Shown: in pieces, positions 12,094 to 55,982 of the stretch | Layout of the letters: each line of letters starts with the position of its first letter | Position numbering within the stretch: position 1 is the stretch's first letter | Source: Chryseobacterium sp. LJ668 | GTDB taxonomy: Bacteria; Bacteroidota; Bacteroidia; Flavobacteriales; Weeksellaceae | Direction: 5' to 3' | Length of the DNA stretch: 64,000 nt | Assembly: GCF_019613955.1 (NCBI RefSeq) | Contig: NZ_CP080443.1 | Coordinates: 1,488,001 to 1,552,000 of the forward strand | Program-made: the position numbers and the translations under genes | The notes under the pieces: model-generated | The model's input: only the letters and a program-made list of their open reading frames with translations | Databases searched by the model: none | Told to the model about the DNA's origin: nothing

Positions 12094-12192
12094 TCATTTT
12101 CCATTTAATTTAAATTGATTAATTTTAAATTGATTAAAAAAGCGTGATCCGAAAAGCTTAAAAAGAGTAGGAAATTACCAAATTCAATTTTT

Positions 12193-52632: not shown

Positions 52633-54402
52633 TTATTTCACGATCATTTTAAAATTTTTGATCATATTATTATTCGAATTTAGGACCGACAAAACATAAT
52701 TTCCTGTTTTTAAAACAGTCTGATAATTAAACTGCTGTATCTCACTATTAGATAATTTTTCTTCTGCAACAAATCTACCAGACATATCATAAATTTTGAA
52801 ACTGCAGTTTTCCTTTTTAAGAACATTCCCTTTCAGTGAGAATCTTCCGTTGTTGGGATTATCAAATAGTATTAAATCTCCTGCTAATGAAGTTTCGGAA
52901 GTAGATAAAGACTTAGCTGAAAATTTTGTAATAAACGCTGAAATACCTGCATTACCTGCATTTGGAAAAATTATGTTTTGCTGTAAAGCTCCGGGTGTGG
53001 TGTGCCCAGACTGAGCGTTGGTGGTTCCGAAAAGATAAAAAGCATCTTCTGTCTCAGAGAATTCTGCACGTACTGCCCAGCTGATGTTGTTGTTCGGGGG
53101 AGGAGGTCCACCATAATAAGAGGTTACAAGTCTGTTTCCGTTTGTATTAAACATTGTAAAAGTGATATCGGGTGCATTGCTTGGTTTTGTATTGAGATAT
53201 GCTCCTGGTGTAGAATGGTTATAAGTTCCGGATTGTAAATACGCATATAGTAATTTATCACCCGAAAGGCAGAGATTTCCTGTCGCTCCGTAAAAATATT
53301 CATCAGTAGGAGTTCCATAATAGGTTCCCCAAACTCTGTTTCCCGACTGGTCAAATTTAGCTAAGAAGTAATCTGAGTTTCCATTAATCTGAGCTTGAAA
53401 TGCTCCCTGTGTAGCAAAATACGAACCTGGATTTCCGTATGTCGTGCTGGTTGTTCCCAAAACAAAGACAGCATCTTCCGAAGCTACTAATCGATCTACG
53501 GTTGAGCCATTTGAAAATCCGTAATAGGTTCCCCAAGTTCTGGCGCCGGTAATAGCATTGAGTTTGGTAATCGCCCCTCTGACTTTTGTTTGCTGAAAAG
53601 TTCCTGCTGTAGCAAGATTGGCATCACTTGCATTAATTTCATCATTGGTGATTACAAATACATTTTCACTATTCACGTCAAAACCAGCGTAATTTTGTGA
53701 CGGAATGTAGGTTGACCAAATTTTTTCACCCTGAGCATTGAGTTTTGTCACATACACATTAGATTTTACAATATTTCCTGCAACATTTGGTAAAGTGAAA
53801 GAGGGAAATGCGGTTCCCGGATCGCCCAAATTCTGCCATAAAGTACTCCCTGAAAGATATATATTTCCCGCATTGTCTGTTTTTATCTCACTTATTGCAG
53901 GTATATAGGTCTTCCACTGTAAAACATCGCTTGCATTATATTTGGCTAAGATAATCTGGTTGTTTCCGGGTTCGACATTAGATGTTAACCAGACATTTGA
54001 ATTTACAGTAACCGGTGAAGTATAAAATTCTCTCTGATAATAGTTGCCGTTTTTTTCGCGATGATATATTTTTTTCACCGGAGGATTATAAGAATAACTT
54101 AAAATAGCAGTTGCGCCGGATGATATTTTGGCAGAAAAATTATTGGTAGTGCCCGGAGTAAAATTCTGTAATCCCGGACTTACAAATTGATTGTAATACG
54201 ATACCGGGACAGAAGAGTTCCCGTTGGTAAAATTATAAGCAATGCCTTCAAGATATATATTGTTTTGAGTATCAAAAAAAATTCTGTCAATAATTGAATC
54301 TACAGGACCTATGTGAGTTGCCCATGTTCTCTCATAATTAAATGTTTGTGCGGCGATTGTAACAGAACAAAAAAAGACCAGGACTTTAAAAATTTTTTCC
54401 AT
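52633..54402 (-). CDS. T9SS-sorted beta-propeller (SBBP-like) surface protein
   Basis: The ATG at 54402 gives a proper signal peptide (MEKIFKVLVFFCSVTIAAQ); an upstream ATG at 54450 would place 16 extra residues before it. The ~589-residue protein has repeated strands such as WGTYYGTP-DEY-like and TRTWGTYYGFSNG, typical of SBBP/propeller repeats, and a C-terminal type A sorting domain (FDNPNNGRFSLKG ... ending with FKMIVK) recognised by type IX secretion. It is exported to the cell surface; the ligand is unknown. Confidence 0.85.
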   Translation of the reverse strand: MEKIFKVLVFFCSVTIAAQTFNYERTWATHIGPVDSIIDRIFFDTQNNIYLEGIAYNFTNGNSSVPVSYYNQFVSPGLQNFTPGTTNNFSAKISSGATAILSYSYNPPVKKIYHREKNGNYYQREFYTSPVTVNSNVWLTSNVEPGNNQIILAKYNASDVLQWKTYIPAISEIKTDNAGNIYLSGSTLWQNLGDPGTAFPSFTLPNVAGNIVKSNVYVTKLNAQGEKIWSTYIPSQNYAGFDVNSENVFVITNDEINASDANLATAGTFQQTKVRGAITKLNAITGARTWGTYYGFSNGSTVDRLVASEDAVFVLGTTSTTYGNPGSYFATQGAFQAQINGNSDYFLAKFDQSGNRVWGTYYGTPTDEYFYGATGNLCLSGDKLLYAYLQSGTYNHSTPGAYLNTKPSNAPDITFTMFNTNGNRLVTSYYGGPPPPNNNISWAVRAEFSETEDAFYLFGTTNAQSGHTTPGALQQNIIFPNAGNAGISAFITKFSAKSLSTSETSLAGDLILFDNPNNGRFSLKGNVLKKENCSFKIYDMSGRFVAEEKLSNSEIQQFNYQTVLKTGNYVLSVLNSNNNMIKNFKMIVK

Positions 54403-54461
54403 ATAATTTTGTTGATGAGATGAAACACGAAAATAATAAAATATCTTCATTCAATTTTATC

Positions 54462-54469
54462 CAAATATA
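54462..54469 (-). promoter_or_regulatory. -7 promoter box of the T9SS cargo gene
   Basis: The minus strand reads TATATTTG, an exact match, 59 bp upstream of the ATG at 54402. Confidence 0.45.
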
Positions 54470-54605
54470 GTGAATAACAATTCTTAATCTTGACACGAAT
54501 ATGTTTTTTAAGCTTTTATTATAAAATAGTTTGACTTTTAATGCAAGATTTGTACTTAATTAAACAAGAAAATCCATTTCAAATACGATTTCTCAAAATA
54601 AATAG

Positions 54606-54613
54606 TATTTTTG
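54606..54613 (+). promoter_or_regulatory. -7 promoter box of the lysA leader
   Basis: TATTTTTG is an exact TAnnTTTG match, 18 bp upstream of the leader-peptide ATG, so the transcript would include the leader and attenuator. Confidence 0.6.
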
Positions 54614-54631
54614 CAAAAGAATAAAATAGCA

Positions 54632-54703
54632 ATGCAAAATTTTAAACAAAAACAAACCGGAAAAAAGGGAGCTGTAAAGTTTTCAAAGGTTTGGAATACC
54701 TAA
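54632..54703 (+). CDS. Lys-rich leader peptide of lysA
   Basis: This 23-codon frame encodes a peptide with six Lys (positions 5, 7, 11, 12, 16, 19) and ends FSKVWNT. It starts 18 bp after an exact -7 promoter box and its stop codon overlaps the antiterminator arm described below. A leader whose own codons report lysyl-tRNA supply would let the ribosome's position decide between hairpins. The leader is not recognised from a known named family. Confidence 0.7.
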   Translation: MQNFKQKQTGKKGAVKFSKVWNT

Positions 54704-54766
54704 GAGTTGCGTTGCATAAAAAATAATTAATGTGGCAGACTCTTTTCGAAGAATCTGTCTTTTTTT
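54702..54766 (+). promoter_or_regulatory. lysA transcription attenuator
   Basis: Terminator: CAGACTCTT (54736-54744) pairs with AAGAATCTG (54749-54757) with one C-A mismatch, a 4-nt TTCG loop and seven T (54760-54766). Antiterminator: AAGAGT-TGC (54702-54710), overlapping the leader stop codon, pairs with GCA-G-ACTCTT (54735-54744), one bulged G, using the same 5' arm. The two cannot form together. lysA begins 16 bp beyond the T run. Confidence 0.75.
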
Positions 54767-54782
54767 ATGCTAAATTAAAATT

Positions 54783-55982
54783 ATGAACCCAAAAGAATTA
54801 TTAAAGATTGCCAATGAATTTGGAACACCGTTGTATGTTTACGACGCAGAATCTATTAAAAATCAATACGAAAAGCTTACATCCTCTTTTTTAAAGCACA
54901 CCAAGTTCTTTTATGCTGCAAAAGCTCTAACGAACATCAATATTTTAAAATACATAAAGAATCTAGGCGCTTCTTTGGATTGCGTATCGATCAGTGAAGT
55001 GAAATTGGGTTTAAAGGCAGGTTTTACTAAGGAAAAAATACTTTTTACACCCAATTGTGTTGATCTGGCTGAAATTGAAGAAGCGATGCAACATGGAGTT
55101 CACATTAATATCGACAATATCTCGATTCTTGAGCAGTTCGGGAACAAGTACGGAAATACCTATCCCATTTTTGTAAGAATCAATCCACATATTTACGCTG
55201 GTGGAAATCATAAAATCTCCACCGGACATATCGATTCAAAATTCGGAATTTCAATTCACCAGATGCGTCACATCGAAAGACTCATGAAAAGTACAAATCT
55301 GAATGTGGAAGGGCTTCATATGCATACGGGAAGCGAAATCAAAGATCCTGAAGTGTTTCTGCAGGCTCTTGAAATTATGCTTGAATTATCTGAGCATTTC
55401 CCGAATCTGAAATATCTGGATATGGGGAGCGGTTTTAAGATCCCATATCAGGAAAGCGACATGGAAACTGATGTGAAGGCGTTAGGAAAGAAGGTTGAAA
55501 AAGCAATTTCAGATTTTTCTAAAGAGACCGGAAAAAAGTTTGAGCTTTGGTTTGAGCCGGGGAAATTTCTTGTAGGAAAGTGCGGATATTTATTGGTAAA
55601 AGCAAATGTGATCAAGCAGACTACAGCGACAGTTTTTGTGGGCGTGAATTCAGGATTTAATCATTTGATCCGTCCGATGTTCTATGATTCTTACCACACC
55701 ATTGAAAATTTATCAAATCCAAAAGGTGCTGAAAGAATCTATACGGTAGTCGGAAACATCTGTGAAACTGATACTTTTGCCTGGGACAGGAAACTTAATG
55801 AAGTGAGAGAAGGTGATGTTTTGGCTTTCCACACAGCAGGAGCATACGGTTTTGAAATGAGTACCAACTTCAATTCAAGATTAAAGCCAGCCGAAGTTCT
55901 TTTCTTAGAAGGAAAAGCGCATCTGATTAGAAAAAGAGACGAATTTGAAGATCTTTTGAGAAATCAGATTGAAGTACTATAA
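54783..55982 (+). CDS. lysA: Diaminopimelate decarboxylase
   Basis: This 399-residue fold-type III PLP enzyme makes L-lysine from meso-diaminopimelate. It shows PLP Lys in HTKFFYAAKALTN, HIDSKFGISIHQ, GLHMHTGSEI, FWFEPGKFLVGKCGYLL-like (ELWFEPGKFLVGKCG), and the C-terminal CETDTFAWDRKL segment with GAYGFEMSTNFNSR. Length is normal. It is the only lysine gene in the window. A leader peptide and attenuator directly upstream would couple expression to lysyl-tRNA charging. Confidence 0.95.
   Translation: MNPKELLKIANEFGTPLYVYDAESIKNQYEKLTSSFLKHTKFFYAAKALTNINILKYIKNLGASLDCVSISEVKLGLKAGFTKEKILFTPNCVDLAEIEEAMQHGVHINIDNISILEQFGNKYGNTYPIFVRINPHIYAGGNHKISTGHIDSKFGISIHQMRHIERLMKSTNLNVEGLHMHTGSEIKDPEVFLQALEIMLELSEHFPNLKYLDMGSGFKIPYQESDMETDVKALGKKVEKAISDFSKETGKKFELWFEPGKFLVGKCGYLLVKANVIKQTTATVFVGVNSGFNHLIRPMFYDSYHTIENLSNPKGAERIYTVVGNICETDTFAWDRKLNEVREGDVLAFHTAGAYGFEMSTNFNSRLKPAEVLFLEGKAHLIRKRDEFEDLLRNQIEVL

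Follow-up and report, generated by a model that had tools for sequence, protein, structure and literature searches.

The DNA immediately upstream of lysA in Chryseobacterium sp. LJ668 very probably specifies a ribosome-mediated attenuator of transcription that regulates lysA by sensing charged lysyl-tRNA, and a response to lysine is predicted. Ahead of lysA the window, i.e. the whole stretch of 64,000 nucleotides that was analyzed, contains (i) a leader ORF with codons for the product amino acid that are kept in diverged leaders, (ii) an intrinsic terminator between this ORF and lysA, and (iii) an antiterminator that shares the 5' arm of the terminator. We class the lysA leader as a classical attenuator for lysine whose protector helix is of a variant form. 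Its parts, in window coordinates, are as follows:

54606-54613, plus strand: TAnnTTTG-type promoter -7 box TATTTTTG, from the sequence; TAnnTTTG lies at most 60 nt before the start in 111 of 112 leaders
54629-54644, plus strand: region 1 (protector), the leader start region that holds the start codon and pairs with region 2; duplex -14.8 kcal/mol, from the window fold and from native versus shuffled and swapped starts
54632-54703, plus strand: leader ORF MQNFKQKQTGKKGAVKFSKVWNT, 23 codons plus TAA, with Lys at codons 5, 7, 11, 12, 16 and 19
54632 and 54701-54703, plus strand: leader ATG and leader stop codon
54653-54693, plus strand: hairpin inside the leader coding region (CAAACC/GGUUUG and GGGAGCU-GUAA-AGUUUUC); synonymous recodings of the region fold less stably (z -2.4 for the native sequence)
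54701-54717, plus strand: region 2, the antiterminator 5' arm, overlapping the leader stop codon (sequence and fold)
54730-54744, plus strand: region 3, the antiterminator 3' arm, containing the terminator 5' arm 54734-54744 (fold)
about 54702-54744, plus strand: antiterminator, regions 2 and 3 (window fold)
54734-54759, plus strand: intrinsic terminator hairpin, regions 3 and 4, -8.7 kcal/mol (fold and shuffles)
54760-54766, plus strand: T7 tract of the terminator (sequence)
54783-55982, plus strand: lysA, diaminopimelate decarboxylase, the regulated gene (TIGR01048)

The lysA product scores 386.8 bits against TIGR01048 (cut-off 297.9) and its closest named relatives are LysA proteins of Chryseobacterium, with up to 98% identity. 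On the upstream side the leader region is bounded by a divergent gene on the minus strand (52633-54450). TAnnTTTG is a motif that we take to be the Bacteroidota type of promoter box. The first-pass annotation of this DNA had placed a promoter box, a leader, an antiterminator, a terminator and lysA here, and all of them were found at those positions. Its finer claims hold as well: the antiterminator 5' arm overlaps the stop codon, the segment 54734-54744 is part of both the terminator and the antiterminator in the window fold, and the late Lys codons assigned to 54677-54688 are K16 and K19.

We suggest that the RNA would begin shortly after 54613 and that the leader ORF would be translated as RNA polymerase moves on. 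With ample lysine, the ribosome would arrive at the stop codon and cover region 2, regions 3 and 4 would pair, and transcription would stop before lysA. With lysine in short supply, the ribosome would stall at a Lys codon, leaving region 2 free to pair with region 3, so that the terminator would be blocked and lysA would be read. In RNA that carries no ribosome, region 1 would hold region 2 and termination would be expected. LysA catalyzes the last step of lysine synthesis, a step needed only for lysine and not for the diaminopimelate of the cell wall, and this would explain why control is placed at lysA.

The two competing hairpins are supported by comparisons with shuffled and permuted sequences and with relatives. 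A terminator is present in all 112 leaders (-15.8 to -8.7, mean -12.3 kcal/mol), and an equally stable hairpin before a T run was obtained neither in 500 shuffles of the same stretch of the window nor in 970 shuffles of 97 distinct stretches from across the leaders. The output of a generic terminator scan of the window lacked the lysA-leader hairpin. The pairing arms covary between genera, e.g. AAGAGU/ACUCUU in g1 versus AAGAGC/GCUCUU in g26 (genus labels are arbitrary, g1 being the genus of the window itself). Native antiterminator arms pair at -8.91 versus -8.13 (sd 0.12) for permuted arms, and none of 20,000 permutations of the 77 distinct pairs was as good. When each clade is represented by one sequence, 8% of the swaps match the native arms in pairing, suggesting that relatedness carries part of the permutation signal. 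The compensatory changes that had been proposed as a check on the attenuator are thus present in the covarying arms and in the permutation test, the latter being weaker with one sequence per clade. Given that the sequences are related, the tests of pairing and of conservation are not independent of each other. The set of 112 leaders includes duplicates (named and unnamed records of the same leader); pairing and folding tests were done on distinct sequences, and the counts of spacings and promoter boxes include the duplicates. Two loci on one contig (L007 and L129) have the leader, yet lie outside the set owing to the lysA filter.

The first-pass annotation had also called the leader Lys-rich. 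Six of its 23 codons indeed specify Lys, a count that is not above chance: dinucleotide shuffles of the same ORF contain 5.8 in-frame Lys codons on average and 60% of them contain as many as the native leader. This test is strict, since dinucleotide shuffles retain the AA pairs that make Lys codons. Lys richness by count was dropped as evidence, the count in this AT-rich leader being not above that in shuffles.

Conservation of the Lys codons, which the same annotation had named as a check, came out in its favor. Among the diverged leaders of 25 residues (23 distinct sequences from g26, g24 and one g7 genome), K8, K13, G14, K15 and K16 alone are invariant, and K20 is found in 22 of the 23, the exception (L210) having Glu for the last Lys; most other residues vary in these leaders and Lys is kept. 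The codons themselves interchange (K8, 17 AAA and 6 AAG; K20, 11 of each), which argues that the amino acid is conserved rather than the bases. In 65 g1 leaders compared by column, K5, K11, K12 and K19 never vary, but neither do the non-Lys residues G10, G13, F17, S18, V20, W21 and N22, and K16 is Arg in 12. Judged from these alignments, selection for lysine appears less clear from g1 alone than from the diverged leaders.

The distance from the start of the last Lys codon to the stop codon is 15 nt in 84/84 leaders of g1, g9 and g7a and 18 nt in 24/25 leaders of g26, g7b and g24 (duplicates included in both counts); the spacing deviates in g27 (9 nt) and in g11 (27 and 12 nt). Region 2 starts at the stop codon or just after it, with the exception of g11. 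Combining this arrangement with the footprint size of a ribosome, we estimate that a ribosome with the last Lys codon in its A site would end at about the start of region 2, and that a ribosome at the stop codon would cover region 2. In one g11 leader (L223) the antiterminator 5' arm lies within the leader ORF (codons KELQ), and a ribosome would mask this arm ahead of the stop codon.

For the window, folds of the RNA up to region 3, in which the ribosome footprint was kept unpaired, behave as this geometry suggests. The probability of the antiterminator is 0.13 without a ribosome, 1.00 with the ribosome at the first Lys codon, 0.98 at the second codon of the last Lys pair, 0.98 at the last Lys codon and 0.00 at the stop codon. 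The annotation's masking logic, i.e. that a ribosome paused on late Lys codons leaves the antiterminator free and one at the stop codon covers it, is therefore reproduced in the window at the three Lys positions tested and at the stop. Across 104 distinct leaders, the means for the same five states, with pairing permitted across the ribosome, are 0.70, 0.92, 0.82, 0.78 and 0.00; with such pairing disallowed, the stall means are 0.92-0.97. When it is permitted, a ribosome stalled at the last Lys codon gives only 0.31 in g26 and 0.00 in g24. Without a ribosome, the equilibrium means for the antiterminator are 0.85 in g1, 0.89 in g9 and 0.82 in g11, the window itself keeping regions 1 and 2 paired. 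Thus, equilibrium favors the antiterminator in these three genera, and the off state there would need the protector to form first.

This protector is an element that the first-pass annotation had overlooked. In the window, 54629-54644, including the start codon, forms 14 pairs with 54701-54715 of region 2. In folds of RNA ending before region 3, the leader start holds region 2 with a mean probability of 0.83 if native, 0.40 if shuffled and 0.35 if taken from another clade. The native protector exceeded the swapped one in 50 of 53 sequences, and in every one of seven clades its mean was above that of either control. The 53 sequences comprise 16 of the 60 distinct g1 sequences and the sequences from outside g1 except L178, which was left out of the protector and footprint-fold tests because its start codon is ambiguous. 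The protector is weak in four single leaders (L197, L119, L123 and L026), 24% of the shuffled starts in g9 and 19% in g24 equal the native ones, and by duplex energy alone the g24 and g11 protectors are unremarkable. A pairing of UUGCAUAAAA with the bases that follow the T tract was considered and rejected: it is striking in g1 and absent in g9, and the same bases suit the protector better.

Region 1 of the trp attenuator takes in the regulatory codons. Here, the Lys codons lie at the end of 54629-54644 or downstream of it, and we treat this difference as an anatomical variation that does not define the family. By analogy, the start-region helix would correspond to the classical protector, relocated onto the start codon. 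It is possible, and we propose this tentatively, that this one helix controls leader translation and read-through into lysA alike: an initiating ribosome would have to open the leader before lysine is read, initiation and lysyl-tRNA charging would both act on the switch, and a second ribosome at the start would keep region 1 occupied while the first is stalled at the late Lys codons. With a protector on the start codon, it would be straightforward to test how initiation on the leader determines the off state.

The leader coding region is itself structured. Its fold is better than those of synonymous recodings at z < -2 in 13 of 16 leaders (range -0.5 to -4.3), and in the window the hairpin encloses Lys codons 11, 12, 16 and 19. 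Such a hairpin may pause RNA polymerase as in trp, which is a guess by analogy. The segment AAGGTTTGGAAT (54686-54697, codons K19-N22) is nearly fixed in g1, synonymous sites included, and pairing of 54688-54693 with 54653-54658 accounts for part of this fixation, not all of it.

The strict conservation within g1 could be read in another way, namely as that of an arrest peptide (TnaC/SpeFL type): a nascent chain of the Chryseobacterium type ending in FSKVWN would sense lysine within the ribosome, and ample lysine would halt the ribosome at the stop codon, so that region 2 is masked. F17, S18, K19, V20, W21 and N22 are invariant in 65 g1 leaders, FSKVWN is kept in 10/11 leaders of g9 and g7a (the exception, from g9, carries T instead of S), and region 2 abuts the stop codon, as such an arrest peptide would have it. 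However, FSKVWN does not occur in the other genera, VWN is absent from the diverged leaders, which vary after the last Lys, and in g1 the codons are fixed at the synonymous level (V20 is GTT in 65/65), which points to a constraint on the RNA; we therefore consider an arrest peptide improbable.

The same conservation of the peptide within g1, together with a Lys count no higher than composition predicts, would fit a constitutive terminator next to an unrelated conserved small protein, with no sensing of lysine. Between genera, however, it is not the peptide that is conserved; it is the Lys codons, the position of the arm at the stop codon and the alternative pairing, and a strong terminator without release would silence a biosynthetic gene, making this explanation highly improbable. 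The long invariant stretches in g1 and the presence of a conserved, structured 5' region ahead of a lysine gene might instead suggest a lysine riboswitch or another ligand-binding RNA in which the small ORF is incidental. Yet no Rfam riboswitch or leader family matched at the gathering level in the window, or at E values up to 10 in 54451-54850, and the curated models of the lysine riboswitch and the T-box gave no match. Moreover, the Lys codons and the pairing survive in diverged genera and no aptamer-like core was seen by eye, and we give a ligand-binding RNA next to no weight. In total, we favor attenuation by a translating ribosome that reads the Lys codons.

The leader is widespread in the family. 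It is found at 66 of 81 close lysA loci (80 loci and the window). A profile built from 15 Chryseobacterium-type peptides matched 147 of 296 family genomes, with one match each and in three genera; the 48 matched places that were fetched as loci all lie at most 160 nt from lysA. Among 40 further lysA upstream regions read by eye, 34 lack a leader and six have a diverged one (L163, L175, L176, L178, L182 and L183). A second profile, built from four diverged leaders, matched 30 of the 296 family genomes, of which 27 have the match at most 160 nt from lysA; the matches in G071, G095 and G249, with no lysA nearby, were taken as chance. Altogether, the leader was seen in seven genera (g1, g7, g9, g11, g24, g26 and g27) of the 33 drawn from the family. 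In 296 genomes searched across the order, no convincing match turned up outside the family with either profile: the first matched 33 at E values up to 0.1, of which 24 were strong and all within the family, and the second matched three at E values up to 0.005, again all within it. Thirteen weak places of the first profile, with E values of 0.008-0.095, were regarded as chance matches; six of them (L151-L156) were read and have no leader before lysA. Eight lysA regions from other families were also read, and none has a leader. Within its own genome, the upstream region has another match (L002), an AT-rich chance match at an unrelated place.

At the close loci, an exonuclease gene lies upstream of lysA in 65/65 named loci with the leader and in 14 of the 15 without it (L064 is cut short), suggesting that the leader was gained or lost in place. 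Eleven of the 15 leaderless loci (L013, L028, L033, L035, L036, L045, L050, L062, L063, L064 and L068) share a conserved block about 120 nt before lysA with an inverted repeat resembling TTATTCT ... AGAATAA; this block is perhaps an operator that replaced the attenuator.

The attenuator of the E. coli trp operon is the classical case of ribosome-mediated attenuation. The lysA leader shares with it the codons for the product amino acid in a leader ORF, four pairing regions, the mutual exclusion of antiterminator and terminator and a stop codon beside region 2, and differs from it in its lysine codons, in the placement of region 1 on the leader start codon and in its TAnnTTTG promoter box. The lysine riboswitch (L box, RF00168) binds its ligand directly and has no leader ORF; the likeness lies in the lysine-dependent control of lysine genes by a terminator, which is predicted here, whereas the lysA leader has an ORF and does not match RF00168. 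Textbook attenuators respond to tryptophan, histidine, phenylalanine, leucine, isoleucine/valine and threonine. In the open literature searched, we found no lysine leader-peptide attenuator. For another flavobacterium, Flavobacterium psychrophilum, operons for amino-acid biosynthesis are reported to show strong signs of leader-peptide attenuation upstream (PMC9723704); the lysA leader would be of the same kind, and lysine does not occur in the main text of that article, the supplement of which could list lysA.

A lysine attenuator in at least seven genera of one Bacteroidota family would extend the list of amino acids under such control, would account for control by lysine at a lysA locus that has no lysine riboswitch match, and would imply that transcription and translation in Bacteroidota are coupled closely enough for attenuation.

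Elsewhere in the same genome (L227), the ORF MKPNFLTVHHYHHLC, from 2241 on the minus strand and with four His codons, precedes hisG and is followed by a hairpin AACCGTCTGAGTCTATAGACGGTT, read by eye, and a T run. This hisG leader is likely a His attenuator, and its presence suggests that attenuation is probably used more than once in this genome; it resembles the lysA leader in combining a short ORF with a terminator before a biosynthetic gene and differs from it in the amino acid and the gene. As a second control gene ilvD proved unusable, being present in 14/14 control genomes and giving no match in the genome of the window (G000), which perhaps belongs to a branched-chain amino-acid auxotroph. 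Finally, positions 12139-12173 of the window match the Rfam DUF805b RNA (RF02914) above its gathering score.
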